The position numbers and the translations under genes are program-made. From Begonia masoniana (taxonomy: Eukaryota > Streptophyta > Magnoliopsida > Cucurbitales > Begoniaceae): a stretch of DNA of 64,000 nt. Of the stretch, positions 8,346 through 44,924 are shown piece by piece. The notes under the pieces are model-generated. The model worked only from the letters and a program-made list of their open reading frames with translations. It did no database searches and had not been told where the DNA came from. Location of the stretch: positions 30,148,051-30,212,050 of the forward strand of contig CM039516.1 of NCBI GenBank assembly GCA_022432975.1, read 5' to 3'. The stretch's first letter is position 1; every line of letters starts with the position of its first letter.

Positions 8346-8806
8346 GCCTTCACTACCCCTTTTCTTTTTCTTTCCAACCCCTTACACACCTCTAACCATT
8401 TCGTCTTCATCAACAAACACTTTTAACATAATAACTCATCCAACCTCACATATTCCTCCATCCATTAATCACCAAAAACACGGCTCAAAACATATTAGAA
8501 AACATAGCCAAATTTCAAAAAAACAAACCTCTTGGATCCGTTTAAAAACTAAACATTTCTCTCTGTTTGAAAATATCAAAAACACAACAAATACTATCAA
8601 TTCTCCCAAATACTATACATTATCAATTCAATTGCCAAGCATCCTAAAATGAGTCATCTAACTCTAACACACACAAAATACCTATACAACTTTCCCCCAT
8701 AGGTCAAAATAGCGTCGACTGTGCCAGCGCACTCCCACGAGCATTTTCCATCAACACGTGCGTTCCTCAGGTGGAGGGGCGTCATCCTCACCTATTTCGA
8801 AGTCAC

Positions 8807-9354
8807 CTACACCATAGAAATAAACTATGAGCTAAACGCTCAGTAAATCTATATAAATGAAAATGCATGCCATGCGTGCGGGGTTCATAAAATCATGCAT
8901 CATTTTCATTCTTTAATTACATAGCATGGGCGTCACCGGGGGTTTACTCTCACCAGATGGAGAGGGCACATCTGGTGATTAGATAGTCCTTTCCATCTAC
9001 CGGGGAAAAAACATGCTCCTTCTCTCAGGACAGCCATGTCTGAATCCCACCCTGACATGATCGTAATTACATACATTCATATCTTTCATTAGTCGTTTCT
9101 TTTCATGAAAACATATGCAAAAATTCATTTTTCGTGCTAGTTCGTAAAACATGATGCATGAACATGGATCGTGTATTAAAAGTAAGAAAACATAGAGCAA
9201 TATATAAAAAGAACCTAGGAAAGCATTCTAATACACAATCAACCTAAACTACCCATCCAACCCACACTAAAATAACATCATCACCTAATATCCTCGATCG
9301 ATAAACACTCCTATGGTGTAGGCCGGATCAGCCAAGCGAATCACGAAGACTTAC
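8807..9354 (-). other. Putative leader intron of LTR A with complementary ends
   Basis: On the LTR sense strand the donor is AG|GTAAGT (9349-9356) and the acceptor is GGTGTAG|GTGAC (exon resumes at 8806), giving 548 nt. The sequence CCTACACCATAG just inside the donor (complement of 9311-9322) pairs perfectly over 12 nt with the acceptor segment CTATGGTGTAGG (complement of 8806-8817). An upstream TACTGAGC/TTAGCTCATAG block near 8822-8845 could supply the branch point. Confidence 0.55.
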
Positions 9355-10166
9355 CTCGCGTCCGTAGCAATCCGACTGCCTTGTTTCGAGCTTCGTCACC
9401 TAGGACATTCCACAATTATCATTATTAGAATCTGCCCTAAACAATTGAACTCCAAAGCTAAACAAAACTCCTACCTAAGGCAATTTTCCTAAAATCTCTA
9501 TTTACGTCATTCGGGCATTTCGTTGAACAATTCGTGCTCACTATTCCAATAACTTCCGTTAATGAAGTTTTACACATTTCCAACCACCAAATTTATACCT
9601 CATTCAATAAAAACTCCAAATCTTCCATCAAAAGTCATAATAAAGGTAAACCTAGCAATTTCTAACATAAACCTAAAATTTCTCAAAACCCTAAACGAAA
9701 ACTCTAACCGTTTTCAACCCTAAAACCGGAAACTAAACGTGTCAAACACACGAAGTTTACCTAGAGCTTCAATATTGGAAGGAAATGGAGGAAGAAAACC
9801 AATCGCTAGAGGTGGAATCGTTGATTGAATGAGGAAATCGCCGCGGAAGAGAGGAAATGCAGAGAAGGGGGGGAAAAAGCCCTCTAGAGGAAGAAGAAAA
9901 ATCGTGAAATGGGGGAGGGAAGAGAGGGTATTTTGTTTTTATAAAAATATTGACTTCACAATTTACCATATTACCCTTCTACTCAACCCACAACTAAATC
10001 CGTTATTTCGCATATCGATTTGGTTTCTCCAAAATTTTCTTATTCCTCCAAATGTTCCAATTTATTTCTAGGGTTCTAATAAAACTTATCGTTCGTAAAA
10101 CGAGCTTAATTTACTATTTTTACGAATAAAACTCTACTAGCAGGAAAATCGAACTCGGGCGTTACA

Positions 10167-15702: not shown

Positions 15703-16347
15703 TGTAACGCCCCCAAACCCACCCTGGCTCGGAGCGCTACTTGGCTCACTTTAACCTCAATAATTTAAATAAAATCGAGCACAGCAGAATTTAAAACTAA
15801 ATCTCCCGAAACTTTCTTATGTCATACCTAGCTGCCTAGACTCAGTAATTTCTCTTAATCCTAACCGTTAAGCACCACGGCGTCTTTCTCGAAAATTTCG
15901 GCAAAGTAACGCCTGAAAATGACGCCTCCAAAATGCTAGGTACCTGCAAAGGAATAAATCTCAGTCAATCCAGAATACTCCTCATCAACTTATCCAGCAT
16001 ACGAAATCACTAAATAGCAGTAAAGAGGGAAACTAAAATACTAACATCTCTAAGTGAAGAAAGTCCACAGTATAGGGCGACATATCACCCTTAATTATGA
16101 CTATATACAACAATTACAAATAGTTATACCATAATTCTCAAAACATCAACCAAAAAGAAAGTTACGCATTCCCATTATTTATACAAACAGACATTTACAA
16201 TAAACTGCCAAAAGACAAAGCCCACATCCCCCGAAGACCATGGTCGAGGCGCCCCGACAACTGCCCGCACCGGCATACAGCGTACATCAACGACTGCGTC
16301 CCAATCCTAGCTTTCCTCATAGCTCTAACCAGTACTCCAGTCGTCAC

Positions 16348-17036
16348 CTACACCACGGAACACACACACGCACGTAAACTTACGCTTAGCAAGTAGGGGA
16401 TAACAAATAAAAACAAGCACAATGCACACACAACCCTCACACAACCCTAACACAACAACACAACACCACTCAACACGACAACGCAACACAACAACACAAC
16501 ACCACCCAACACGACAACACAACACAACCCTAACAAAACTGCCTGCATCGAAAGATGCCTTATTGCCTGCATCGAAAGATGCCTTAGTTGCCTGCATCCA
16601 AAGGGATGCCTTACTCTTTAAGCGACTATCATGCCAAACAATGCAACACAACACCCCAATGCAATTCAACATACCGACTCAACACAACACGACAACACGA
16701 CCAAACAATGCTAGTTACCCGCACCCGAAAGGATTCCTTAGTTGCCCGCACCGAAGTGCCTTAGTTGCCCGCACCCAAAAGGATGCCTTACTCTTTAACA
16801 GACTACCATGCCAAACAATGCAACACAACGCGACAATGCAACTCAACAACCCGACTCAACACAACACGACAACACGACCAAACAATGCAACACAATACAA
16901 CAACGTAACTCAATAACACGACACAACACAACATAGCCAAACAATGCAACACAATACGAAGTAAAACAATAACAAATAAACCCTACCGTTCTATGGTGTA
17001 GGCCCGAAGGCAAACCACAAGCACTCCACTACTTAC
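16348..17036 (-). other. Putative leader intron of LTR B with complementary ends
   Basis: Sense-strand donor AG|GTAAGT (17031-17038) and acceptor GTGTAG|GTGAC (exon resumes at 16347), 689 nt. The plus-strand segment ctatggtgtagg at 16991-17002 pairs with cctacaccacgg at 16347-16358, with one G-U type difference at the outer end. In this LTR the repeat-rich block lies inside the intron. Confidence 0.5.
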
Positions 17037-17824
17037 CTGGAATCCTAGCTCGCTGAGGATACTCGGTTACCTATCCACCTACGGCTCGACCTACGACAAA
17101 TATCCAAACTTCATTAAAATTAAATTTACATTCACCAATTACTCCCAAACTACTATTTCTAGCCTAATCCAACTAAAACCTAACTAAACGGACCACTAGT
17201 TTGGGTTTGGTAAAAACCGACCCGAACTTCAAACGCGAGTAACTTTTGTGTCGGATATCAGAATCAAACGATTCCAGCGGCCACGTACTCTTCTAATAAC
17301 CTATTTTAACCTGCCAAAAGGAATTTTAAAACAAATGACCGCAACTAGGACAAAAATCAGAAAACCCAAATCTGCCCTAAACCTGGAATTTCATCCTTCT
17401 CCGTTTTCCTTCAATTTTCACCAATCAACCACCCACACCCTCAATTAGCATAAACAAATCAAAATCCTGAGGCTACACACACAAAACCCGAAATGCCCAA
17501 ATCGGGCTTGCTGGTTTTTTGCCCAAATTGGGCTCCTCACGGCTAGGCGACTAAAGCCGGTCCAAGGGTCAGCAAACCCACGCCGGAAACAACCAAAATC
17601 AGCCGGTGATCGGAGCTCAAACTCGCTCCTCACCCTCAGCCACGAACAAAACCGAAAACAGGGCAAAACCAAGTCTTACCTGCTAGTTCATGCGCGGAAA
17701 CAACCGAAGCCCGCTCGCCGCCGTTGTCTGGCCGGAGAACGTCCGAAACCGCTGTTGTTTTGGTCGGAGATCATCGCCTCTCGTCGCACTCCCCTCTCCC
17801 CTGCTCCTCGGCCCTCGTCGCTCG

Positions 17825-21353: not shown

Positions 21354-21420
21354 TGTTAATGAAGATATGTTGGCAGATGTTTTTGGAAAATATATTTTTG
21401 GATATTCATGTTAGATGAAC

Positions 21421-21715
21421 AAGTTGACCGATTGCAGATGTGTTGGGTAAAGAGGTCGACTGTGTTGGGTAAATAAGTCGACCGATTGTAGTTGTTCTGC
21501 GAAGTCGACCGATTGCAGTTGTTCTGTCATAAGTCGACCGATTGCAGAAGATCTGCGAAGTCGATCGATTTCATTTGTTCTGCAATGTCATCGACCGATT
21601 GCGATTGCAGAAGATCTACGAAGTCGACCACTTGCAGTTGTTATGCAATATCAACCGATCGCAATTGCTCTGAAAGTCGACCGATTGCAGGAATAAAAGA
21701 TCGGTCGACTATTAT
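21421..21715 (+). repeat. GTCGACCGATTGCAG short-repeat array, 5' LTR copy
   Basis: About ten imperfect units of roughly 24-27 bp built on AAGTCGACCGATTGCAGTTG and TTCTGC lie near the start of the copia LTR. Confidence 0.9.
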
Positions 21716-21919
21716 GCTATAATGTCTTCCCTGATGAGGAAAATTTTGTGAAATATATAATCATAACAATCCAGACTATATTTATGGAGTGCTCAGATTG
21801 AGTTTCCTTGTTTGAATGATTTCTTTCTAAAAGTATTACATGCGATGTCACTCAACTTGTTCACTCAGGTTATTAAATATGGTATTCAGAATAATTTTTG
21901 CACACATATATGGTACATA

Positions 21920-24544
21920 TGTCACGACCCTAACACTGTACTCAAATTCCGTACTATTTATTTATTTTTTTATCCCTATACTTTAAATAAATTCTAGGCG
22001 GACTTTAAGCGGAAATGAAACCGAAATCGAAATCGGATTCTAAAACAAATCTTAAAACAATTTAAATAAGCGATTAAAACAATTAAAACTATTAACTAAA
22101 TTAAATAAAACTAATTAAAATCCATTTAATCGTCGGCCGAGGTTTCGAGGGCATAAGGGACAATTTGTCCCAAAATGCCAGTGGCGATCGATCGCCCAAA
22201 AATGGGCGATCGATCCCCTGTGGCGATCACAGCCAGGTGACTGATCGCCTGGCAGATCGCCCCTGTGGCGATCACTCACAAGCCCAGCGATCGCTCGGCA
22301 ACTTCTCTGGAAAAATTCAGAGAAGTTGACAAACAGGGGGCGAACGATCACCCTCCCTGGCGATCGTTCGGCAACCCCTCTGGAATCGCCTCCCAGAGGG
22401 CTCGCCACCCCCCCCCTTTTCTCTCTTCCTCCTTTTTCCTCTTCGTTCTTTCCCCTGTAAACCAAATTCAACAGCACACTTAGTCATTCATTTTTCACTC
22501 GTTTCCTATACATTTTGTAGCAACTTCAACATAACAAACCCCTTCCCCCCTACATACAATTAACACTTCACTAATCCCTCATTTAATGACTCAAAACGCA
22601 TTTCAAAACCACGACTCAAAACCCGTTTAAAACATAGCCTATTTTCATAAAAACAATTTGCGTGGATACATTTAAAACCTAAACAAATCCACCTGTTTTT
22701 GAAAGCACCCAAACGGTTATCAAATCAGTTTCCAAAACATTTCAAAACATCAAAACTTAAACCTATCCAGATCCAAACATCATAGAATGTTTCTAACTAT
22801 AACATAATCCACTGTACAATCAAAATTCACCCAAAACTCTCAAAATACCTAACCACTTTCTTCATGGGTCAACATACGCGACGACTACTCATGCACACCA
22901 CCGCAATCGTTCTTCTTCAACCATCCTGTACATCGGGTGGAGGAACATCGTTCTCACCTGCTTCGATATCACCTACACCATACAGACACACTATGAGCTA
23001 AAGGCTCAGTAAATTCTACGTAAATGCAGATGCGTGCAGTGCATATGGAGTTCAGAAATCATGCATAACATACAAAGCGTCGCAGAAAGAATATCACCGA
23101 GATCTCATCCCCCTAACCGAAGGGGGCCCATCCAGCGGTCGGACTACCCCGTGCGGTTAGAGGAGGGGGGTACACGCTTACAACACGTACAGCCGTGCCG
23201 GAGCCCCACCTCGCGTGACCAGATAACAGATTACGTTCATTATTTACATTATATGAGATGTAGTATTGGTCAGACCCTTAATCGGTCCACACAATAGATC
23301 GATAGCCCCCAATTTCTGGGCCACATCAGTTTTTTGAAAACATCGTGCGGAAATTCATTTTCATGCCAAGTTAAAATACGTGATGCATGAACAGTTCAAT
23401 ATAAATGTAAACAAACAAGCACGCGTACCATCAAGACTGTAAAAGAAATAACCCACGAAAACGTTTAAACCTAACTACCCAACCAAAGCAGTTTAAACAT
23501 ACAACACTCTAAGATCCTCGACGCGACATCGAAGTACGGTGTAGGCCAATCGGCCAGAGTAAGTCACGAGAACTTACCTCGTGTCCGTCGCAGCTCAAGC
23601 TCCGTCCACGAGCGTTGTTTGTCTGAGGCAAAACACAACATTCGCCATTAAAACTAGTTTCAGCTAATAATCGTCCAATTTTAACGAAACCTTAACTAAG
23701 AAAATTCTCCTAAAATTCTAGCTTAGCTCAATGAGGCGTTTTCATCCATCAAATAACGCTCAATACGTCGAAATTACCATTAACGAGTTTTCCCCCAAAA
23801 CTCAGAAATTGTAAAATCTCTAACATTTGTCTTAAGTCGATTAACTTTATCCAATAACGCTCAATACGTTCAATATACTCATCAAAACAACAAACCCCTA
23901 AATCGCGTTTTTAACGAAAACCTAAACGAAACCCTAATCGTTTAATTTCGTAAAACTAAGAACTAAAGCTGGGAAACATTAGAGACTTACTAGGAATCGG
24001 GTTTGGGAAAGGAAACGTGAAGAACGGAAGTCGCCGGAGCGGAGAACCGACGTCGGAAGGAGGAATCGCGTGAGAGAACGCCGGAGGAGAGAAATCGCAG
24101 GAGAGAGGAGAAAATGGCGTGGAGAAGAAGAAGGGTTATTGTTTTAAATTTAATATTGACTTTGCAAATTGCCATTTTGCCCTTCTTTTGATTTTCTATT
24201 TGTTTCGTCCTTCGTTTCTTTAATTAACTGACGATTTGGCTTTTCCAAATCTCCTTAATTCCCCAATAACTCCAACTCACTACCAAGGTTCCATTAAAAC
24301 TGTCCGTTCGCAATTCGGACCTCATTTACCATTTTTACTACAACGTCCATTACATTTCGAGAAACGTAATTACTCGGAATTAAGCATTACCACTCCGAAA
24401 ATTCTCATAATTTCCTTAAAATTCCTATTAATAATTAGGATTCCAATGACGCTTTATTTTCGTAAAACATGTTTGATTTGACATATTTACAAAAATGCCA
24501 ATATATATTATAATATAAAAATCTCATACAAGCCAGATATTACA
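21920..24544 (-). mobile_element. Solo LTR C nested in the copia 5' LTR, TSD ACATA
   Basis: A 2625-bp LTR, minus strand TGTAATATCTGGC ... GGGTCGTGACA. A perfect ACATA duplication lies at 21915-21919 and 24545-24549, and the empty site is visible in the 3' LTR. It is the closest relative of LTR A here: both have CGATCGAT clusters and CTCTGG...CCAGAG dyads. ORFs within it, such as 22115-22477, are chance frames. Confidence 0.94.
22973..23577 (-). other. Putative leader intron of LTR C with complementary ends
   Basis: Sense-strand donor AG|GTAAGT (23572-23579) and acceptor GGTGTAG|GTGAT (exon resumes at 22972), 605 nt. The plus-strand tacggtgtagg at 23535-23545 pairs with cctacaccata at 22972-22982, with one G-U type pair. 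Confidence 0.52.
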
Positions 24545-25362
24545 ACATAATATTGGGACGATACTTTCCGTTTGTAGCGTGCAGAATGAATTATATGAAG
24601 TGAGTTTTATTGGCGTGAGTTTTGCGCTCTCTGAATTACTTCTCTAAATTTCCCGATCTGAGAGAAGAGGTGACATGCACTCTGTTTAGTGACCAGTCTT
24701 TACCATCATCAGAGCGTATTTGTGTTTTATATCTGTGAGTGACGACAGAAGTTTGATTTTCACGAGAGAAGCTTTCTTCACTTTGCGAGCCGTCGTTTTT
24801 CTTTCACACCCTACGTTTATGCGGAGTTTGTGATTTTTTTTACACACTCTACCTAATCTGTGGATTTCATCATTTTATTGAGTGTATTGTTTATTGCGTC
24901 CAAAGACAATTGCCTGGTGTTCCAGAAGGTGTCATAGGAGGCAATCTGTTTGTTCTTTCATTAAAACTCAGTCTCGGGAGGAGACTGCCTGGAACTCGGG
25001 AGGAGTTCTGATCGTGGGTAAGGGGATCTTGCCATACACGGATTCCGGGAGTAGTCATTAAAGTCGATGGGAGCTCGCAAAAACAGATTAACTGAGGAAG
25101 TTAGTGAGAGGCGACGACAAAAACAAGAGGGAGTCTTTATTTGTATAAGCCCGGTTGTCTTGTAACTTTGTGAACTCTTTGAATTGTTTTTATGTCTGGG
25201 CGTGGCCCCCCAGACGTAGGCAATTGTCGAATTGCGTTACCAATCTCCTGTGTCATTATTTTCTGCACTTTATTATTGTCCATTATCACGAAAATAAATT
25301 GGTGTTCCACTTATTGTTCCACCTACACTAGGGCATCAAGTAACTAACTTTGATCTTTCAAT

Positions 25363-26969: not shown

Positions 26970-27431
26970 ATGCCAATAAAGAATTTTGATTACAAAGGAA
27001 AACAAATTGCAGTGAATGATGCGGATGTCAAGAAGATGACAAAGCCTAATTCCACATCCATCAGAAATGGTAACAAATTTAAAATAGTATGTCATTATTG
27101 CAATTGTAGAGGACATATACGACCGAGATGTTTTACCTATTTGGCTGATTTAAGACAAGGTACTGCTAGAAACCCTTTTGTTTACAGGATGCCTCAACAA
27201 AAATGGGTGAAGAAATCCACATTGAAGTGTAATGTCACTCATACATCTCTAAAAGCTACTACAGCTGATGCATGGTACTTTGACAGTAGATGTTCTAGGC
27301 ATATGACCGGTGAAAAGAGGTTCTTGAAGAACATTACATCTGATCGTATGGGAAAAGTAACCTTCGGGAATGGTGTCAAGGCCAGTGTCATAGACGCAGG
27401 AACTCTAAATGTGCCTGGATTACCACAATCC
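26970..27431 (+). pseudogene. SIRE-like copia second zinc knuckle and protease start
   Basis: The frame contains a second CCHC knuckle, CHYCNCRGHIRPRC (about 27090-27131), and the protease active-site block. The expected D-S-G-C is D-S-R-C (27282-27290), a Gly-to-Arg change that should abolish activity. The frame then reads VTFGNGVKASVIDAGTL and breaks at about 27431, where a foreign LTR fragment begins. The rest of the protease and the whole integrase core are missing. Confidence 0.88.
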
Positions 27432-28088
27432 GCCTGACGTCATCTGCCCACATCTTCCACCCAGTTTATCTTCATCTTCCGCCTGACGTCAGCTACATCT
27501 TCCGTCTGACGTCATCTGCCAACATCTTCCGCCCAGTTCACCTCCACCGGTGAACATTAATCTTCTACCTGTAGTTCACATCTGCCAGTGAACAGTCCAC
27601 TTTTGCTTGTAATTTACGTCTTCTGCCCCGGTTTATTTACATTCTCCGCCCAGCTTATTTACTTCTTTTGCCCTACATCACCTACCCTGACATTCACTGT
27701 AGCCTTTCTTCCGGCATGACTTCCAGTTTTATCTTCCATTTTATTAGGTTTCCCACTGCATGTCAAGTCGTCCATTTCTGTATCCCCATTTGCAATTCTC
27801 CCTGTCTCCCTGCACTCGTCCAGAGAAGGTTTACGTCCAAATCCTTAAGTGTTCTAGTTTCCTTGCTTTCCCTTCTGTCATTCGTTCCGTAGTCTGATTT
27901 TAATCTTTTCCCGTTTTGTTTACTTTAATTCCAGAGAATGTTCTCTCTCTCTCTGTAAAGTTTTTAAGGTTTTGTTTGTTTTTAAAGGTTCAGTCTGTTT
28001 GGTTCAAAAAAAAAAACGTGTCCCGTTTTCTGTTAAATATCCCGGAGTGATGGCTCCTCCGACCCCGATCGAGTCGGGGGCTGTCACA
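27432..28088 (+). mobile_element. Truncated LTR (E type, plus strand) replacing the copia integrase
   Basis: This segment is the reverse complement of roughly the first 640 bp of LTR E (42157-42800), with matching 'cgcctgacgtcatctgcc', 'cccagtttatttacatct' and 'ggctcctc.gaccccgatcg' blocks and the LTR end GGGGCTGTCACA at 28088. The rest of the LTR is absent. The left junction falls in the copia protease and the right one in the integrase C-terminal region, so the insertion was followed by a deletion that removed both LTR and copia sequence. Confidence 0.8.
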
Positions 28089-28230: not shown

Positions 28231-28997
28231 TATAACGACCAATTTTCCCAGTAAGATATTGTCCGCTCTAGGGATTGGGCCGTAGCCCAATATCCTCCCC
28301 TCACGGCTTTGTTTGGCGAGGACTTCCCAATCGGTCACCCAACCTAGTACTACTCTCGCCGAAGCACTTTAAACTTCGGAGTTCTTATGGGATCCGTTGC
28401 CAATTGTGCTCCAAAACGCGTCTTACTATTTTGGGAGGGTCTCTTTACATATGTTTCATTTCCACATACTTCCCCAAGCGATGTGGGATTGTGACGGCCC
28501 CCATATTACAACCTACCCCCTTCACCGGCCTTTTTTCCCAGCAGACGCACCGCCATCCGGGTCCGGATCCAGTATACGGGCCAGTCGTGCACATATGGGT
28601 CATCACAATCATCCCCCATCGGGGGCCCAATGTCCTCGTTGGCCACATTTTCGTTTGGGTACAGGCTCTGATACTATTTATAACGACCCATTTTCCCAGT
28701 AAGATATTGTCCGCTCTGGGGATTGGGATGTAGCCCAATATCCTCCCCTCACGGCTTTGTTTGGCGAGGAGTTCTTATGGGATCCGTTGCCAATTGTGCT
28801 TCAAAACGCGTCTTGCTATCTTGGGAGGGTCTCTTTACATATGTTTCATTACCACATACTTTCCCAAGCGATGTGGGATTGTGACGACCCCCTTTTTACT
28901 ACCTGTCACCTTCCAGTTCACCTGCGCAGACGTACCGCCATCCGGGTTTTGGTTCGTGCAGCCATTGTACACATACTTACATATCTGGGTTATCACA
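28231..28997 (-). mobile_element. Cassandra TRIM, both LTRs, TSD CAAGA
   Basis: A 767-bp element flanked by CAAGA (28226-28230 and 28998-29002). Left LTR 28231-28607 (377 bp) and right LTR 28679-28997 (319 bp) enclose a 71-bp interior that carries a primer-site remnant (minus strand TATCAGAGCC, next to the right LTR). It is therefore on the minus strand and its 5' LTR is the right one. The left LTR contains a 5S-rRNA-like segment, the hallmark of Cassandra, a non-coding terminal-repeat retrotransposon in miniature transcribed by Pol III. The frames here encode nothing. Confidence 0.93.
28316..28410 (-). other. 5S rRNA-derived promoter segment in the Cassandra 3' LTR
   Basis: The minus strand follows plant 5S rRNA over about 95 nt: GGATCCCATAAGAACTCCGA, GGCGAGAGTAGTACTAGG and TTGGGTGACC..TTGGGAAGTC are all recognisable, covering the internal control region for TFIIIA/Pol III. 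It is not a functional 5S gene. The right LTR lost 58 bp of this segment. Confidence 0.92.
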
Positions 28998-33038: not shown

Positions 33039-35202
33039 TGTAACGCCCCGAATTATATAAACCCGGTTCGTCACACATAATACATAACCATACTCCAACA
33101 TTCTTAGAAAAACTTAAAGTTTCACTCGACGGTCAAATTTTGATCCTTAAAGGTAAAACTTGCAGCGAAAAAGTTTTTGTATAAACAACATTTATGAGAT
33201 AAACAATATGTTAAAACGTTTGGCTAAGAGAAACGAAACTGAACAGTATCAGCAGAAAAAGTGGATACAAACGACATCTACCGCCGAACAGTGTCAGTGG
33301 CAGAAGCAGAAACAAAAGGCATCTTCTGCTTCCAACATCCACCTTTCACGTCAGCCGAATGACACGCCGACTTTCACGTATCTACCGCTCACACCCGTCG
33401 ACGACACGTCGACTACTCGCATCCACCGGTCACAAAACGACAAAAATCTAATACTCACTCCTATGCGTACATCCACCGGTCACAAAACGATAAAAACTCT
33501 ACTCACATCTTCCGCTGAACAATACCAGTAGAAACCACTTAGACTCATTGGTAGAAGTAGAAATAAACGCCTTCTTCCGCTAACCACGTGACTTTACTAA
33601 ACTAACCCACGTGACTCATTAACTCAAAATTTAACAACTCATCATCCACCGATAGACTAAACTTCAACATCTACCGATGGACTACATCCACCGATAGACT
33701 AAACTTCAACATCTACCGATGGACTACATCCACCGATACACTAAACGACAAAAACTCAACATCCACCGGTGGACTACATCGACCGATAGACAAAACACTC
33801 AATCATAACAGCATAACAACCATTTTTGCTCTATACTAGGAAAAATCCGACTACCAAAAGAGCTTGAACATTTTACTAAAATCGATCAAAACAACCTAAG
33901 TTCACAACTTACTAAAAATATCTAGCAAAGCAACTACCTCTAAACCAAATCATGTTTTTCATGTTTAGAATAAAAACATAAAGTTGTTAAAAACACCAGA
34001 GCTATTAATGTTATTAAAACTCTCTGCATACTTCCACAAGACACTTAACCACTAAAACTTCATAATTTGATAATAGTTAAACCGCCCCATCAGTTCACCA
34101 AGTCGAGGCATGAATGTGCTCCCCCAACAGCCTATTCCTCAACATGCTCAGAGAACACACCTTCTGAGGCTTCTTCACCTACATCACAAAACTCATCTAT
34201 TAGCCTAATGCTAAATAAGTGAAGCAATAACGAAATGAAATGCTGAAACATAAATCCTAATCATTCAGTTTCTACTTTCACATCTCAGTTGCATTTACAT
34301 TCTTCACTGATCTGATCCCTCGGTTCCATTGGGAGTTGGATCAATTTTCCCAAAGTCATACATCCTCTTCATAAATTAAGGGGCGGATTAGTTCCCTTAA
34401 TAGCTAATCTGATCATAAATTTCCATTGGGATGCGGATCAATTTTCCCAAAGTCATACATCCTCTTCATAAGTTAAGGGGCAGATTAGTTCCCTTAATAG
34501 CTAATTTGTTGCAGTCTATTCATTTCTCACCAAACCAATACATGTAAATTCATTTTTGTATTCTTTCAAAATATGATGCATACTATACAGACAAATTCAA
34601 ACATATATAATCCTACTGTTTTGTGATGTAGGGCCAAAGGCTTATGCATACTCCACTTACCTGGCTTCCTGGAAATTCTCGGTTTCAAACTACTTCGGAA
34701 GTCTTGCTCACCTAAGTCATAAACAGAATATCAATTAGATTTTTACTAAACCTCATTCTAATCTGTCCAGAAATCTAAGGAATCTAATTTGGGAGTTTTA
34801 TACATAGTGCATTCCTGATTCACCACCAAAACCGAAACTAACTCCCACCTACGGCATTCACCAAAACTCACATCTATGCTCCTCTCTACCATCACTAGTT
34901 ACAATGTAGCATGAAATCGAAGTAGACTCACCTAGTTTGGAGAAAATTGGAGAGGGAATTGCCTGGAGAGCTCTGCTGAGCTTGAGCTGAATATCGAGAG
35001 AAAGTATGGAAAATAGTGGCGGCTACAGTACATTAATCACAAAACCTCTTTCCTTAAATAGGTTATCACTATAATTCTCTATTTACCATTATGTCATTAC
35101 TTAATCATTTATTAACCTAATCACTAATTCTCCCAATTTTATCCATAAAACGTACACTGCAAGTTGCTTAAGTAAATTGGTTCAATGAAACCGGGTGTTA
35201 CA
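33039..35202 (-). repeat. 3' LTR of the Tekay-like element (LTR D)
   Basis: A 2164-bp LTR starts TGTAACACCCGGTTTCATTG on the minus strand at 35202 and ends CGGGGCGTTACA at 33039. Because it is attached to the polyprotein it fixes the class and orientation of LTRs A, B, C and E. It has a 'catccaccgatagactaaac' / 'catctaccgatggacta' array at about 33640-33790. Confidence 0.95.
34179..34660 (-). other. Putative leader intron of LTR D with complementary ends
   Basis: Sense-strand donor AG|GTAAGT (34655-34662) and acceptor GATGTAG|GTGAA (exon resumes at 34178), 482 nt. Plus-strand gttttgtgatgtagg (34618-34632) is a perfect 15-nt complement of cctacatcacaaaac (34178-34192). The paired sequence differs from that in LTRs A-C at the same positions on both sides. 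Confidence 0.58.
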
Positions 35203-35240: not shown

Positions 35241-38200
35241 TTACCTGAATAATTCTGGATATTGGTCCATCATATCCTGCTGGCGCTCCCAGGTTGTCTC
35301 CTCTATATTCTGGTTGTGCCATAAGACTTTTACCAGTGGGACTTCTTTGTTGCGCAACACCTTCACACCATAGTCTAGGATCCTTACTGGCTTCTCCTCA
35401 TAAGTAAGAGTGGGATGAACTTCAGTACCCTGCTGTTCCAAAATCTGAGATGGATCCCTCAAGCACTTCTTTAGCATCGAAATATGGAACCCATTGTGAA
35501 TCCCTTCCATAGAGGCTGGCAATTGCAACTCATATGCTGTCTTTCATATCCTCTTCATGATCGAGAAAGGTCCAATATACCTAGGGTTCAACTTGCCCCT
35601 CTTTCCAAATCTCACAACTTCTTTGAGTGGTGATACCTTAAGAAAAACTTCATTACCTACCTCAAACTCTAATTCTTTACGTCTACGATCAACATAATTC
35701 TTTTGTCGACTCTGAGCTGCCAAGATTCTCTGTCGGATGAGGGCAATCTTCTCCACGGTTTGTTGCACAATGTCAGGACCAATCAAACGTGCTTCACCAA
35801 CTTCATCCCAGTACAAGGGAGATCTACATTTCTGCCCATACAATGCTTCATACGGTGCCATACCGATAGTTGCCTGAAAACTGTTATTATAAGAAAACTC
35901 CACCAACGATAGATATTTACTCCAAGATCCTTGAAAAGCTAAAATGCATGCACGAAGCATATCCTCTAAGGTCTGAATAGTTCTCTCGGATTGTCCATCT
36001 TTTTAAGGGTGAAAGGCTGTATTGAAATTAAGCTGCGTACCCATAGCCTTATGTAAACTCTTCTAGAACTTAGATGTAAATCTAGAGTCTCGGTCTGAAA
36101 CTATAGTGTTTGGAACTCCATGTAGTCTAACAACTTCGTGCACATACAACTCAGCAAGTTGATTCATCGAGTATGTTATCTTTATAGGCAGAAAATAGGC
36201 AGATTTGGTTAGACGATCCACAATGACCCAAATTGCATCATGTCCTCTTGTTGTCCTAGGCAATCCTACCACAAAATCCATCGTTATTTGCTCTCATTTC
36301 CATTCGGGGACAGACAAAGGTTGTAATGTTCCTGCAGGTCTCTGATGTTCAGCTTTAACCCGTTGGCAAACAAAACACGATCCTACATACTCTGCCACAC
36401 TTCTTTTCATACCTGGCCACCAATAATGTTGCTTAAGGTCTCTGTACATTTTTTTACTTCCAGGATGAATGAAGAATCTAGAAGAATGAGCTTCTGAAAG
36501 GATCTCTTCACGGAGTTCTTTATTGGCCGGAACAAACCATCTATTTCGAAACTTGAGAATTCCATCAACAGAATGGTTAAAATCCGACACATCAGTACAA
36601 TTCACGAATGACATATACTTATCACATTCCACATCATCCACCTGGACTTCCTTTATTTTCTCCAAAATAGTAGGCCTCAAGGAAATGGCAGAAAGCATAG
36701 CTGACACGCTGGACACTACCTCAAGGTTAAATCCTTGTAGTTCAATCTCTAAGGTTAACGGTATGTCAAGAATCAATGCAGGGGCTGAAGTCGTCACTCT
36801 ACTCAATGCATCAGCCACTACATTCGTCTTGCCGGGGTGGTATTTGATCTCAAAATCATAGTCTTTGACAAACTCTAACCATCTACGTTGCCTCATATTT
36901 AATTCTTTCTGTGTGAAAATATACTTCAGATTTTTATGGTCCGAAAATATCTCACAAGACTGTCCATACAGGTAATGCCTCCAAATCTTTAGTGCAAAAA
37001 CTACTGCAGCTAATTCTAAGTCGTGTGTAGGATAATTCTTCGCGTGTGTTTTCAACTGTCTAGAAGCATAGGCTATTACTTTTCCATCTTGCATCAACAC
37101 ACAACCAAGTCCAATCTTGGAAGCATCACAATAAATGCTGAACTTTCCATTTTCAACAGGGAGTGTTAATACTGGAGCATTGGTCAACTTTTGTTTCAAA
37201 GTCTGAAAACTAATCTCACATTCCTCTGTCCAAGCATACTTAATGTTTTTCCTAGTTAACCGAGTGAGGGGTGTTGCAATCTTCGAGAACCCTTCAATAA
37301 ATTTCCTGTAATATCTTGCTAATCCAAGGAAACTCTGAATATCAGTGGCATTCTTTGGTTGGAGCCATTCCTTAACTGTTTGAACCTTAGCTGGATCAAC
37401 AGATATCCCACCCGAGATCACATGACCAAGAAAGTGAACTCTGTCCAACCAAAACTTACACTTGGAAAACTTAGCATAAAGTTGATGTTGCCTCAGTACT
37501 CCCAATACCAGGTTCAAATGTCTTGTATGTTCCTCCTTAGTACGCGAATAGATTAGTATATCATCAATAAATACTATGACAAACTTGTCCAAATACTCAT
37601 GAAACACTCTATTCATAAGATCCATAAATACTGCTGGTGCATTTGTCAATCTAAAAGACATAATCAAAAACTTATAATGTCCATACTTGTGCGAAAGGCA
37701 GTCTTAGGAATATCTTCTGATTTGACTTTCAATTGATAATAACCGGACCTAAGGTCAATCTTAGAGAAGACTCGCGCACCATTAAGTTGGTCGAATAAAT
37801 CATCAATCCTTGGCAATGGATACTTGTTCTTGATGGTTAGCTTATTCAATTCCCGATAATCAATGCACATACGCATTGATCCATCATTCTTTTTGACAAA
37901 AAGAATTGGTGCACCCCACGGTGAAAAGCTTGGACGTATGAGCCCCTTATCCAATAGTTCCTCCAACTGTTTCTTTAATTCCTTAAGCTCCGTAGGTGTT
38001 AATCTATAGCGGTTCTTGGATACAGGCTCAGCGCTAACATCTACGACAAATTCAATGTCCCTATCTGGCAGCAAGCCAGGGAGGTCATTCAAAAATACTT
38101 CTGGAAAGTCCCGGACAACTAAGACATTTTGAGGACTTGCTTTTCCTACAAACTGTGTGTCTATAACGCTGGCCAGAAAGCATAAATACTCTCTGCATGA

Positions 38201-38617
38201 AGAGGGTCTAGTGTTGATAGAAGTCATAACAGACATTCCCTTACTCTTTTTCAAAGCTTGGAAGGTATGCTTCAAACCACCAGAGGGTTGAAAACTAACA
38301 ATTTTAGTCCTATAATCGATTATGGCATAATGTTTGAACAACCAATCCATTCCTAAGATTACATAAAATCTCATTATATCCATAATAATGAAATCAACAG
38401 GTAAATTCTTGTTCTCTACCAACACGACACTGTCAAACATCACTTGGTTAGAGTGCATGCGCTCACCAGAGGGTAACGCGACGTTAAATACGTGCTCAGT
38501 AAGGGTAAACTGTACATGTAACTTGACAGCAAACGCATACGCTATAAACGAGTGTGTTGCATCAAAATCTATTAAAGTAAAAGCAGGTATAGAGTTGATC
38601 AAAATGGTACCTGACAC
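35241..38617 (-). pseudogene. Tekay-like pol: protease, RT, RNase H, integrase, chromodomain
   Basis: Read from 38617 leftward. Protease has D-F-D-A-T-H-S (about 38550-38573) in place of the usual D-S-G-A, so its catalytic turn is lost. RT holds [20 protein letters not shown] and [15 protein letters not shown] one-base deletion near 37690 then shifts the frame, which resumes to give [14 protein letters not shown] with both catalytic Asp (about 37560-37571). RNase H follows ([35 protein letters not shown]). Integrase has its zinc region ([11 protein letters not shown]), the first Asp in MDFVVGLP, the second in [10 protein letters not shown] and the Glu in DGQSERTIQT. Two stops near 36005 and 36064 look like Gln and Trp codons changed by C-to-T type mutation. 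The C-terminus (35241-35528) is a chromodomain (PVRILDYGVKVLRNKEVPLV, VLWHNQNIEETTWE). Confidence 0.94.
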
Positions 38618-38641
38618 TATGGCGGGTTGTTCTTCATCGCC

Positions 38642-39440
38642 CTACTCCAACATGGAGAATATCATCGGCTTTATCTTAGCAGGGCCACTCTTCAGAGCTG
38701 GACAGTCTCTGTTAATATGGCCGACTTTGTTACAGTTGAAGTGTCGGGTGATTCTGGGATTTGGGCAATCCCTATATGTGTGTCCAACTTCCTCACAGTT
38801 GAAACACTTTCCCGTCCCAAACCTGTACTCGCCCAGATGACCTTTCAAACACTTCGGGCACTAGGAAAACTTCCGGGTGTCTTGCACCTTCTTTCCTGTT
38901 CCCTGGTTATTCTGACCTTCACTTGGCCTCTTCATTCCTCTCTGCGGGTGTGGCTGGATAAACTTTCGTGAGGCTTCCTTTGGCCCAGCACACTTCATCT
39001 CCGCTTCTTCCACCTCCAACGCCGTGGACACAACTTCACTGAAGGACAAACCCTTAATACCACAAAATTCTACTCCTCTGTAAATTTCCGGCTTCAGTCC
39101 ATGCACAAACTGAAACACCTTATCCTCATTCTTGTGAACAAAATGTCCAGCAAACCTGGATAAGGACTTGAATTGCCTACTGTACTCAGCCACAGACCCT
39201 GTCTGCTTCAAGTTCAAGAACTCAACTTTCTTTGCAGCCTGGACTGTGCTGTTGAAATATTTCTCATAGAAAATCTCCTTGAACTGTGACCATGACATAA
39301 CTAGAACGTCAGTGGCGGTCTCTATGGTTTCCCACCAAAGTTGAACGTCCCCAGCCAAATAGAATGTTGCCAGAGTGACTTTGTCTCCTTCCCCGACATT
39401 GGTACATCTGAACATGCTCTCAATCTTCCGGATAAAAATG
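38642..39440 (-). pseudogene. Tekay-like gag, 5'-truncated
   Basis: The frame from about 39440 begins inside the conserved gag core (IRKIESMFR, then YLAGDVQLWWETIE and FNSTVQAAKKVEFLNLKQ). Frame 38642-38848 supplies the zinc knuckle CFNCEEVGHTYRDC and a second knuckle whose first Cys is His (HFNCNKVGHINRDC). A stop separates the two frames near 38861. The N-terminal third is missing. Confidence 0.92.
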
Positions 39441-41859
39441 TAAATTACAAAATATGTAATAAAATGAAAACAATAAAAAAATCTGACATCCACATTTTTA
39501 ATATGTATAAATATCTAATTACAATAGCAAACAATAAAATGGAATATAACTTACTTGATGGAAGACACCAACGGCAAAAAATACGAGTTGACAAATTTGA
39601 AAGAACACAGTAAATGATGAGTAGCGGATAGATAGTACTGTAGACAAATCAAATAATTACTGTAAAAGAAATATAAAAGAAAAACAATTGGAAATACTTA
39701 TTCTATCTTCCAACTCCCGCTACTACCCTAAATAATAAGGTTGTTGTGCGAGATTGGAAATCAGTTATGCAATGACTTTTACAGCTATTACCAACAACTT
39801 TTGTGAGTGTTTTTTTGTCATACCACAACACTAGACTAGATGGTCACCACTAGATACTGTATTACTCGTCGCAATGCGAAATATGCAAGACATAAAACAA
39901 ACTCATTCTCGCTGTGACACAAGAATTCTGAGGTGCAAGTGCCAACTATGCAACCATTATTGTTAAGAGGACAATAAGACTACACACGTCGAGTCACTAG
40001 TTCTAAGCCTGGGCAACTAGATAAAGCTCATGGATTGATCCTCCATTTAGAACTAGATCCAAGTCTATCTATGGCTAGAGATGCTTGGACCTATTATTAT
40101 TTTAATATTTCCTATTTTAGGTAGCCCTTTGACCGGATATGGCCTACTTCAACCCAACTTTCGGTCAGGTGATGTGGTTCAAACGTGGAATTTATCCCTC
40201 ATAATTTTTAATAAATTAAATTACAGAAGAGATAAATTATGATGGTTTGAAAAGTCATATATGTGAACACTGATGTAAGTATAATGTGAATAGACAAAAA
40301 TAATAAACTAATAAATTGTGCATAGGAATGATAAAAACTTGAATTGTTTTCTATGAACAATTTAGATATTTAAGTGTTGCTAATAGGTAAATGTGCATGA
40401 CATTTAATGAAATCTTAGAATATCAAAGTAGACAGCCTAATAAAGAGAATGACCTTTGATATCCATATGCCAAGTTGTATAATTTGGAAGTTGGACAAAG
40501 TGTAAAGATAATTAATTAAGATTTACGATAAATAAATTGTGGATGGTACATCACGAGAAAAGTTTCATGAAGACCGTACTTATGATGTCATGTAATAAAA
40601 TATAGTCACTAGTTGGGTGTTGCCACATGTCAAAATGAAAAGGATAGGAGATGTGGTTGCTTGGAATATTAATTAAGTTACTTAATCTTGATTTACTCAA
40701 TCAATCATGAGTAATGTAACTTATCTTGATTTGTTTAAAAATAATTATATTGAGTTAATATGGATTAATTACTGGTAATTATGTTGTACAAGTAGCTCAA
40801 TTCGTAATGATTTTGAAATTGGAGACGAAACGATCTTTTCATCCTCGTCGAATTTTAGAAAGACTCTTAAACCTGAAGAAGGGTTAGAAAATCAAGGTGA
40901 GCAGGTGAAAAAAGAAGAACCAGAGAAAGGGAATGTCAATTTAAAAAGTGAAGGACAATTTAAAATGAGAATTGAAAAAAATGAAGGACAATTTTAAAGA
41001 GAAACTGGACAGCAATTAAAAAGAAGGGTTGAGAGCAATCGGGTTCCATTTTGAAATCAAAATCAAAATCAAAATCATGACCCACTGTTCAGTGGACCTA
41101 GAACCGGAACTGTGGGTGCATAAATTGAACTAGATGTTTGATTTTCAGAAAGAATAATGTTATGTTTACCCTTTTAAAATACTCTGACGTATCAAACAAT
41201 GATTAATGTAATTAATGTGTAATTAATGTAATAAATTATAAATAGTTCATTTATTATATTAATTACATCAATAATTGTTTGATATATCCACATATATTTT
41301 ATAAAAGTAAACGTAACATAACTATTTCAAAAAAATTGTGATTCTTATCTCATAAAGTTTCATTAGTCATCTCATTTTTATTATGCTTTTCAGTTTTTAG
41401 ATAATCAGTTGTTTCTTATTCTTGAAAAGTTTCATCATTCATCTCATATTTACAATCAGCCAATTCCAATAATTTCATGCATTCATATTTGCATACGTTA
41501 TATTCTACAAATCTTATCCTTGTACATTCTTATATCAATATTGAACCATATGCATCCAAGTAAAAGATTAGAATAAATTATAAATTGAGTACAAAAGAAA
41601 AAAAAAATTGAATAATATGTTTTATGATGTAGGACCTTTAATTAAAATATTTAAAAATTAGTGTTTTACTTTTTTTTTATTCTTAAAATATAACATTCGG
41701 GTTTGCTTGCGAGCTCATATGATATTGCTCACATAAATTAATTATTCTATTATTAATATATAATAATTTTGTTTAATGAACACTTTAGAAATAAGGTACA
41801 AATTCTTTAATAAGTTTTCGATTGGCTTGGTTAGATTGAGTTCGGTCAAGTCTTTTGTC
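39441..41859. other. AT-rich intergenic sequence, no gene seen
   Basis: Apart from a small foldback element at 41159-41322 I see no coding sequence, LTR or RNA gene. A 'gaaggacaattt' motif repeats near 40960-41000. Confidence 0.5.
41159..41322. mobile_element. Foldback MITE-like element, 164 bp
   Basis: The segment is an imperfect palindrome. Ends 'gttatgtttacccttttaaa' and 'tttataaaagtaaacgtaac'+'ataac' are complementary, and 'tatcaaacaatgattaatgt' pairs with 'taattgtttgatata'. No protein is encoded. The target duplication is unclear, so the superfamily is not assigned. Confidence 0.65.
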
Positions 41860-42689
41860 TAGGGGTGTGCAAAACCGAACTAGAACCGATAAACCGAACC
41901 AGAACCAGTTAAATCGGTTTGGTTCGGATGAGTTTTGAGCATTTGGAAACTAAACTTCGGATTGATTTTGTAGGAACCGACTTTTTATGTTTGATTTTTG
42001 GTTTGGATCGGTCAAAACCGATAGAAACTGAACCGAACCATTCCTGCATTTTAAAACCGAATAACTCTGAAGAATGAAGACCTAAATCATCGATTCTTCA
42101 CTCTTCACCTAAAAATTCAGCCTCCACTCGACCACTCCTCTAGAGACGACACACGTTGTGACAACCCCCGACCCGATCGGGGCTGAGGAGCCATCAGGGA
42201 TGTATATTTTTTTTTAACCAAACAGACTGAACTTTTAAGAGCAAACCCTTAAAAGCATTACAGAGAGAGAGAACTTTCTCTAGATTTGAAAACTGTGAGC
42301 TAATTTAAAACTGGATTACAGGGATGATTGATAGAAGGAAACTAGGAAAAATAGTAAACAGAAATGGACGGCTGAAATAAAGAAGCAGAATAAAATAGGA
42401 TAACAGAGAGAATGAAAACAACTGGAGGAGGGCATACTGTAGAAGGGCTACAGTGGATGGCATGAATAAACTGGGCGGAAAATGTAGGCAGTAGACGAAG
42501 CAGAAAATGTAAGTAAACTGGGCGGGCGATATAGACTAGCGGTGGATATGAATAAGACAAAAGTGAACAGTAAACAACGGCAAATGTGAAAAAAACAAAA
42601 GTGAATAGTAAACAATGGCAGATGTGAATAAACTAAAAATGAACAGTGACAGCGGCAGATATGAATTAAATAGAAGCAACAGAAACAGC

Positions 42690-43150
42690 GGTAGAAGTAA
42701 AGCAGATGACGTCAGGCGGAAGATGTAAATAAACTGGGCGGAAGATGTAGGCAGATGACGTCAGGCGAAAGATATGGATGACGTCAGGCAGAAGATGTAA
42801 ATAAACTGGGCGGTAATGAACTGTTCACCGGTGGAAGTGAACTACAGGCAGAAGGAGACTGTTCACCGGTAGAGGTGAACTACAGGCAGAAATGCACTGT
42901 TCACCGGTGAAAATGAACTACAGGCAGAAATACACTGTTCACCGGTGGAAGTGAACTACAAGCAGAAATTCACTATTCACCGGTGGAAGTAAATTTAAAG
43001 GTAGCGGTGGATGTGCTTTAAAAGGGCAACGGTGGATGTGATTTTAAAGGCAGCGGTGGATGTGATTTTAAAGGCAGCGGTGAATGTGCTTTTAAAGGCA
43101 GCGGTGAATGTGCTTTAAAAGGACAACGGTGGATGTGATTTTAAAGGCAG
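42690..43150. repeat. Short-repeat arrays in LTR E
   Basis: Three successive unit types occur: 'gatgacgtcaggcggaagat' with 'aaataaactgggcgg' (42690-42815), 'ctgttcaccggtggaagtga' with 'actacaggcagaaat' (42815-42990), and 'aaaggcagcggtggatgtg' (42990-43145). Each has 3-6 imperfect copies. Confidence 0.88.
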
Positions 43151-43612
43151 AATTGACAACATTTAACAGGGAGCATAAAACAGAAGGCATAAAAAGTTTC
43201 AGACCCTCAAAACCCGATTCAAAGCAAAGTTGTAAAACATGCTTTACAAATGACAGATTCAAGAAAAACAAACTGCATGGATAGCTCTAGAATTCATGAC
43301 CATCCATGCACAACTTAAAAAGGAAGAACTCTAGCAGTTCCAGAATGTTTTCAACACATTTCAAAACATATTTACAACTGTCAAATACAGAGGTTTTAGA
43401 CATCAATACAGGACTGAACCTACAGAACTGAACCTACACTTCAAATGTTTTAAAACTTCAAAAGATGATACAGAACTTGACATAACTTCAGATAATACAT
43501 TCTCACAGGGTTAACTCTTGTCTGACTGCAACAACCGACCCCCATAATCTCGAGCCATCAACCACCTACTCATCGGCTTGAGGCACAAAATCCTCATCCA
43601 CGAGATCCGTAC

Positions 43613-44198
43613 CTACAACAGGGAGTTCAACTATGAGCCTAAAGCTCAGTAAGAACATGAAATACAGTGATGCACTTGCTATGTATGAGCATTTTCAAAT
43701 ACATGAACATTACATTACATTTCACTGGACAGGAAGGTATAAGTGGGGCTTATAAAGGAACTGGCGCACATACATACTTGACATAACAGGACATGACATT
43801 GGTTAGTAATTTTGCCGGGTCCCAGGGAAGGACAAGGTACATGGTATCCTTGGTAGGGATAATTTTACAGGAGTCCCAGAGAAGGATAAGAACAGGATGC
43901 CAGTCCCCGTCTCACACTTAACCGTACTTTACATTCACATATTTTATCTTTCTTAACTTCAAACCGTGTGTAAAAAATATTTACATGACTTTAAGGAAAA
44001 ACGTGTATGCATGAACATTTACGGTGCTTAAACATAACAGAGACAGGAGGCAGAATAACAAAGCAAGACATAAAATAAAACACATTTAACCTAAAACATA
44101 ACCTACGGTTTAACTACCCAACGACAATCCCGATAACATAAACCTAGTTCCTCCGTATTGTAGGGCCTTAAGGGCTGAACCTATACGCATGAACTTAC
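43613..44198 (-). other. Putative leader intron of LTR E with complementary ends
   Basis: Sense-strand donor AG|GTAAGT (44193-44200) and acceptor TTGTAG|GTACG (exon resumes at 43612), 586 nt. Plus-strand ctccgtattgtagg (44151-44164) pairs with cctacaacagggag (43612-43625) at 12 of 14 positions. The paired sequence differs again from that in the other LTRs. Confidence 0.5.
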
Positions 44199-44924
44199 CT
44201 GTTGTCCGTGAGTTGCAAGCTTTGTTCGTTTTACCTCTGCGATCCACAGATCTTTTGTGGAGAAAAATGGAGAAAACGGGAAAAAGGTTGAGGTTAAAAT
44301 CGTCGTTGGTCGCCTGGAAGAGAGAAACAGAGAGGAGAGGAAGAATATGGAGGTTTACGTAGAGGAGAAGATAAGAGGTAGGTTTTCTTAGCAAGTTTTG
44401 GACATTTTGCATCAAACCATTGGCTCCCTCCCATCAACCTTAATTCCTTTCCAAATTGCCCCTCCATGCATTTATAACTAATGGTTTTGTTTAATTACAC
44501 ATTAGTTTGGTTTTTATGCTATTATTCAATTCAACATGAACTCCGTCGATTTGATTTCTAATCGATTTGTTATTTGGTTCGTCAGTTCGGTTTCCTCGAC
44601 ATCCTCTTTCTCCACAAAACGTCCCACAATTTCAATAAAATATTTATAACATTAATGGCAATTTAATCCCATTCCATAACTCAAGGGATAATTTATACAG
44701 CCAAAAATACCGGGTGTTACACACGTAGAGTTGCAAACGTAGACGATCAAGCGAGGCGACGACTAGAGCCCCAACAGAAGACGACAGACACAGGTGACGA
44801 CACACGACTGGCGACGACTCTCTGCTATGGGCTATCGAGTATCGACGACGACAGTAGCACCGACGACGACACACGATCAGGCAACCGAATAACCAGGTAT
44901 GTTCTGTTCTCTGCTCATTTTTGT

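Follow-up and report, generated by a model that had tools for sequence, protein, structure and literature searches.

Plant LTR retrotransposons are generally described as intronless, with Ogre and EVADE as the notable exceptions (2025 review, PMC12786077). Ogre, a Ty3/gypsy element of the Tat lineage, carries an intron that is spliced in a subset of its transcripts, and Tekay is listed in the same source as a plant Ty3/gypsy clade (PMC6317226). In foamy viruses, the donor located in the LTR, together with RNA structure, can also steer polyadenylation (PMC3694450). In the open-access literature, which most subscription journals lie outside, including the available parts of PMC7730604, PMC12513839 and PMC5838962, we found no description of a plant chromovirus with an intron inside its LTR, or of a helix joining the donor side of an intron to its acceptor, and within this literature the claim of a preliminary description of this DNA that no such account was known survives. 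In a sunflower study, the set of expressed elements contained no Tekay members (PMC7730604), a possible reason why splicing of this kind has escaped notice.

The window, that is, the whole stretch of 64,000 nucleotides of Begonia masoniana DNA analysed here, contains five LTRs (A to E) in which the minus strand shows AG|GTAAGT at the donor and TGTAG|G at the acceptor, both of the U2-type consensus, together with a segment that can pair with the acceptor. This segment, the 5′ arm of a helix denoted P1, starts with CCTACA 28-34 nt inside the donor, and its complement precedes the TGTAGG at the acceptor end. The splice sites were read from the sequence and the arms delimited by pairing count (in LTR A, also by folding), with pairs counted outward from the core and G-U included:

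9356-9349, minus strand: donor of LTR A, AGGTAAGT
8807..9354, minus strand: putative leader intron of LTR A, GTAAGT...GTGTAG, 548 nt, junction 8807|8806
9311..9322, minus strand: P1 5′ arm of LTR A, CCTACACCATAG, 32 nt past the donor G
8806..8817, minus strand: P1 3′ arm of LTR A, CTATGGTGTAGG, with the acceptor AG and the first exon base inside
16348..17036, minus strand: putative leader intron of LTR B, 689 nt
16988..17002, minus strand: P1 5′ arm of LTR B, 14/15 pairs
16347..16361, minus strand: P1 3′ arm of LTR B with the acceptor
22973..23577, minus strand: putative leader intron of LTR C, 605 nt
23534..23545, minus strand: P1 5′ arm of LTR C, 12/12 pairs, one of them G-U
22972..22983, minus strand: P1 3′ arm of LTR C with the acceptor
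34179..34660, minus strand: putative leader intron of LTR D, 482 nt, within element D's 3′ LTR
34618..34632, minus strand: P1 5′ arm of LTR D, 15/15 pairs
34178..34192, minus strand: P1 3′ arm of LTR D with the acceptor
43613..44198, minus strand: putative leader intron of LTR E, 586 nt
44151..44164, minus strand: P1 5′ arm of LTR E, 13/14 pairs
43612..43625, minus strand: P1 3′ arm of LTR E with the acceptor

In LTR A, the 12 pairs of P1 are perfect and, with G-U allowed, all of the first 17 positions counted from the core are paired. The five matches to AGGTAAGT in the window are precisely the donors of A to E (1.82 expected), but at least five matches were present in 4 of 100 shuffled sequences, so that little weight can be placed on the donors by themselves. 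Of the six matches to TGNTGTAGGT, five are the acceptors of A to E (0.40 expected). The preliminary description had placed the donor, arms and junction of LTR A correctly, as re-reading confirmed, and had attributed the same layout to LTRs B to E, with a spacing of 482-689 nt and complementarity between donor side and acceptor; both hold, with introns of 482-689 nt and arms of 12-15 nt. Its remark that the LTRs align poorly outside these landmarks stands for B, D and E, for which no alignments to the others passed the search, but not for A and C, which align at 72-78% in four pieces. It did not mention two additional hairpins, P2 and P3, or a likely second, upstream leader intron (see below).

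The elements that carry these LTRs could be delineated in three cases:

21920..24544, minus strand: 2625-bp insertion into a copia-type LTR, flanked by a 5-bp target duplication and interpreted as solo LTR C (flank alignment)
42157..44721, minus strand: LTR E read as a solo LTR, TGTAACACCC...TTGTCACA, with the target duplication ACGTG (sequence reading)
35244..39514, minus strand: element D, with gag, protease, RT, RNase H, an integrase zinc finger, a Tf2-1-type SH3 domain and a weak chromodomain match, in an interrupted frame (Pfam)

The flanks of LTR C (21354-21919 and 24545-25360) align to 31257-31858 and 31854-32672, respectively. LTR D is the 3′ LTR of element D, the coding parts of which lie upstream of it in the Ty3/gypsy order gag-protease-RT-RNaseH-integrase. 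Judging from its Pfam matches, element D encodes a Ty3/gypsy polyprotein, probably of the chromodomain type, the match to the chromodomain itself being weak (E 4e-4, 20.7 bits, below the curated cut-off of 25.1), and we take it to be a Tekay/Del-like plant chromovirus. No other element of this type in the window has coding parts, and the analysis covers one genome. Among the listed relatives of its RT protein, those with organism names are plants; no plant relatives were found among viral contigs. Ten contigs in bacterial assemblies (L001-L010) encode close relatives of the plant-type retroelement RT and are probably eukaryotic contamination. A motif scan of all ten, with the LTR side read in six, revealed no TGNTGTAGGT or TGTAGGTGA acceptor, which says nothing about other plants because most of these contigs end inside or before the LTR. 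One of them (L002:6222-6243) includes the LTR of a different retroelement in which the complement of a donor-like AAG|GTAAGG comes immediately after it (GTAAGGTT-ctac-AACCTTAC), forming a hairpin on the donor. Two further repeats of the window were recorded, namely tandem repeats with CACCGGTG palindromes at 42704-43150, within LTR E, part of which is also found inverted at 27429-27680, and, at 28231-28947, two LTR-like repeats, resembling a Cassandra-type element, that overlap a minus-strand 5S rRNA match (28305-28417). The latter is the sole match in an Rfam search of the whole window, in which no family reached the gathering score in the LTR introns.

The introns share a common RNA anatomy. 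From the donor, the order is about 20 nt, P2, the P1 5′ arm, a family-variable body, P3, a few nucleotides, the P1 3′ arm and AG|G. P1 consists of 12-15 bp, with the 5′ arm 28-36 nt inside the donor and a 3′ side made up of the last 11-14 nucleotides of the intron and the first exon base, so that the acceptor AG lies within the duplex; the donor itself is outside all three helices. P2, recognized by eye, is a small GCC-loop-GGC hairpin directly before the P1 5′ arm. P3 is a 5-bp hairpin that takes the forms TGAGC/GCTCA, TAAGC/GCTTA, TTAGC/GCTAA and TGAGT/ACTCA, and a survey of hairpins placed it in the window as follows:

8828..8842, minus strand: P3 of LTR A, TGAGC-loop-GCTCA, with the branch-point-like CTCAT
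16375..16388, minus strand: P3 of LTR B, TAAGC-GTAA-GTTTA, 27 nt before the AG
22994..23008, minus strand: P3 of LTR C
34200..34214, minus strand: P3 of LTR D, TTAGC-ATTAG-GCTAA
43634..43648, minus strand: P3 of LTR E

The distance from the end of P3 to the AG is 20-23 nt in 20 of 23 introns and 27 nt in L052 and LTR B, and in L050 (4417) the script chose a different stem as P3. The 3′ strand of P3 carries CTNA, roughly 21 nt ahead of the AG, a motif that resembles the plant branch-point consensus; branch points usually lie 18-50 nt before the AG. Mismatched P3 hairpins of the TTAGC form number 133 genome-wide. In unconstrained folding, the pairs of P1 have probabilities of 0.71-1.0 in LTR A (0.89-1.0 for the 12 pairs of the arms), 0.65-1.0 in B outside the mismatch, 0.80-0.98 in C and 0.96-1.0 in D, and a probability of 0 in E; the arm duplexes of A to E range from -18.4 to -22.3 kcal/mol.

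The pairing was examined in a non-circular set in which the 5′ site was defined as the donor plus CCTACA (27 sites in 264 kb, including the window) and the partner as the first TGTAGG 300-1250 nt downstream. Such a partner was found for 17 sites, including those of A to E, whereas no TGTAGG lay within this distance of the remaining 10. The site definition fixes six core pairs; the next eight positions constitute the test. In the 17 introns, 121 of the 136 cells at these positions are paired, vs 100.7 ± 3.0 with shuffled arms, and none of 100,000 shuffles reached this number; with one intron per k-mer cluster (13 introns), the respective values are 92 of 104 and 77.9 ± 2.45, again with none of 100,000 shuffles as high. 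Position 7 is C-G in eight introns, T-A in six and A-T in two, with one mismatch, and position 12 is A-T in seven, G-C in seven, C-G in one and T-G in one, also with one mismatch. L042 pairs poorly (12/16). P1 and P3 were assessed jointly in a set of 23 introns, some of which were found via the pairing and from which the TCTAC intron on L054 was left out. In this set, 91.3% of the cells are paired, compared with 82.5% after shuffling and 31-50% after sliding, 58 cells are changed on both sides vs 20.5 in shuffles, and the covariation score is 0.364 vs 0.190; the 22 further pair types do not exceed the shuffled number (20.9), and P3 rows shifted by the aligner (e.g., L044, L048 minus, L052 and LTR B) count against P3. 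Thus, the arms covary across the LTR families of this genome, the property for which the preliminary description had proposed to look.

A scan for a GTRAG donor, an arm of any sequence 22-41 nt inside it and an AGG acceptor 200-1500 nt on, with at least 11 of 12 pairs, yielded seven candidates in the 64 kb, five of which are A to E, compared with 0-3 in six Markov controls. Swapping the 3′ arms among A to E lowers the pairing, and the true assignment is first or tied with one other among the 120. When LTR stems were searched for regardless of the donor, 35 rows were obtained, comprising, by our count, 15 mirror images, two stems that are not LTR-like and 18 LTR stems, 17 of which have a GTRAG 18-40 nt upstream, vs 3.2% of background windows; the arms are tied to the donor. 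By our count also, 19 of the 27 donor-plus-arm sites have the acceptor arm as their best 14-nt complement within 3 kb, and two of these introns, grown to 2.0 and 2.4 kb by what we read as nested insertions, retain the pairing; at the other eight sites, some of them near the end of a stretch, the site's own partner is unrecognisable or weak.

The layout of these introns recurs elsewhere in the same genome. From the interior of large contigs, twenty 10-kb stretches were drawn at round coordinates before their sequence was viewed; the arm-blind scan used on the window gave 29 rows in them, 13 of which are LTR-like by our count (12 of the 13 rows starting with CCTAC, the exception being L056, and one L054 row starting with TCTAC), the other 16 looking like chance matches. 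Across the assembly (795 Mb, 308 contigs), the pattern donor-N20-32-CCTACA occurs 30,184 + 30,025 = 60,209 times and its reversed control 21 + 22 = 43 times. Taken together with the 121 paired cells, this excess makes selected RNA pairing between the arms well supported. Of 30 loci that resemble the acceptor side of LTR A (LTR A among them), 25 retain the donor side with conserved arms, the donor side of the other five being unrecognisable. In these loci, the 12-nt windows at the donor, both arms and P3 rank high in conservation, with 0.9-11% of windows scoring above them; because the acceptor side served as the search query, the donor side alone escapes the resulting bias.

With about even confidence, we read these features as a leader intron that folds on itself, so that branch site and acceptor are masked and spliced and full-length RNA are balanced. 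Every LTR of this chromovirus-type retrotransposon would carry a spliceosomal leader intron in which P1 joins a donor-side segment to the intron end and the first exon base; the fold would mask the branch site and the acceptor and tether both to the donor side, making splicing slow or conditional. Some transcripts would then stay full-length and provide the template for reverse transcription, and the remaining ones would lose an AUG-rich stretch of the leader. Splicing, the direction of the effect and its benefit we infer from the sequence. A consensus donor combined with a branch motif and an acceptor that are both in helices looks like restrained splicing, and the arms changing in step between families suggest a built-in control of splicing vs whole RNA. 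By established retroviral logic, the 5′ end of the template serves to rebuild the LTR, and a retroelement with an intron in its LTR would therefore have to keep enough unspliced RNA.

The main rival reading, less probable but a serious one, is that P1 promotes splicing by looping out the variable body and uniting donor, branch site and acceptor in a virtual mini-intron. The pairing kept in the 2.0- and 2.4-kb introns agrees with such a function, for which yeast introns with complementary segments offer a precedent (PMC7404189); however, the acceptor AG is inside the helix and the branch-point-like motif inside P3, and a pure bridge would need neither. The preliminary description had left open whether the pairing brings the sites together or hides the acceptor; its pairing holds up, with covariation, and of its two options we lean towards masking because the branch-point-like motif lies in a second covarying hairpin. 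Two other explanations appear improbable, each to a similar degree. Control of polyadenylation through an LTR donor would be analogous to foamy viruses, which also have a donor inside the LTR and for which a structure of the donor region in the 3′ LTR has been proposed to block U1 (PMC3694450), but the helix in the Begonia LTRs covers the acceptor rather than the donor. The helix might instead serve the full-length RNA, in packaging, dimerisation or first-strand transfer, with the splice signals being secondary; its location 552 and 851 nt upstream of the primer-binding site in two copies would suit such a role, yet one arm ends at the AG|G acceptor, and in 17 of 18 LTR-like stems the other keeps a constant distance of 28-36 nt to a GTRAG donor. 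Chance or unconstrained shared descent is highly unlikely despite the relatedness of A and C and the common ancestry of the LTR families, being contradicted by the blind scan, the association with the donor, the genome-wide count of 60,209 vs 43, the covariation of P1 and P3, and the covariation and shuffles with one intron per cluster; chance as such is ruled out on these grounds. Inverted repeats of a nested DNA transposon were likewise rejected, by argument, since the arms occur 28-36 nt from the donor, different families have bodies that do not align, and the arms change in step.

Splice-site reading alone delineates candidate upstream introns in four LTRs, and frame reading an open stretch after the acceptor:

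9400..9760, minus strand: candidate upstream leader intron of LTR A, 361 nt, with an ATG-free exon 2 of 45 nt after it
17091..17679, minus strand: candidate upstream leader intron of LTR B, 589 nt
23623..23990, minus strand: candidate upstream leader intron of LTR C, 368 nt
34712..34931, minus strand: candidate upstream leader intron of LTR D, 220 nt
8753-8806, 34131-34178 and 43565-43612, minus strand in the window, with 20 further copies in L041-L060: post-acceptor open frame

An upstream intron of 220-589 nt followed by an exon 2 of 45-54 nt without ATG is thus plausible for A to D. Across 23 copies, ATG occurs at 2.2 per kb over the 40 nt that precede the donor, at 44.0 within the intron and at 32.7 over the first 150 nt beyond it, against a background of 20.2; splicing would not clear the leader of AUGs because the stretch after the acceptor is AUG-rich as well. 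In L043 and L054, TGGTATCAGAGC, which we take to be an initiator-tRNA-type primer-binding site, is found 851 and 552 nt past the acceptor, respectively, behind the LTR end, so that these two copies look like 5′ LTRs in sense orientation. The word joining exon 2 to exon 3 of the A/C type is absent genome-wide (0 matches), whereas the acceptor plus exon 3 word of the same type has 749 matches; this fits the copying of unspliced RNA only and, equally, no splicing. Read from its third base, exon 3 gives an open, acidic frame, often of the form GED...ED, which in 14 of the 23 copies ends after exactly 14 codons. The third positions of this frame vary twice as much as the others in family A (716/711/1436 differences), a contrast that disappears once CpG columns are masked; exon 2 has stops in the matching frame in 6 of the 23 copies, and no upstream start was found for the 14-codon frame, which could be the final coding exon of a peptide encoded in the LTR.

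A wider proposal, which we advance tentatively and with clearly less confidence, is that the LTR acts as an RNA switch: the fold of P1 and P3, with P2 beside it, present in many chromovirus families and at about 60,000 donor-plus-arm sites, would set leader splicing transcript by transcript and so apportion RNA between messenger and copying genome. The fold may in addition distinguish 5′ and 3′ LTRs, since a transcript that ends before the acceptor would lack the 3′ arm. A leader intron conserved at tens of thousands of LTR sites in one genome would alter the intronless picture of these elements, offer a concrete and testable answer to how transcripts are divided between translation and replication, add a covarying donor-to-acceptor RNA fold in a plant intron, and possibly account for the splice sites that such LTRs lend to adjoining genes.

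Among the known systems, Ogre resembles the Begonia elements in that a spliceosomal intron of a plant LTR retrotransposon is partially spliced, but its intron lies between the gag-protease and RT-RNaseH-integrase frames, outside the LTR, and the available part of the source mentions no donor-acceptor helix (PMC6317226). In the copia elements EVADE of Arabidopsis and BARE1 of barley, as would be the case here, splicing parts the messenger pool from the RNA that is copied; however, these elements belong to another superfamily, and in the portions of the accounts available their intron is internal, either near the end of gag or removing the protease (PMC12786077, PMC3735527). Foamy viruses share a major donor in the LTR that is controlled by RNA structure, but they are animal viruses, and their structure, as far as the accessible text describes it, acts at the donor and on polyadenylation, whereas the helix described here holds the acceptor (PMC3694450). 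Finally, introns of budding yeast likewise contain a long-range helix between the intron ends; those introns belong to host genes, and their helix, in the part of the source at hand, brings the branch point near the 5′ splice site, whereas in the Begonia LTRs it covers the acceptor AG (PMC7404189).
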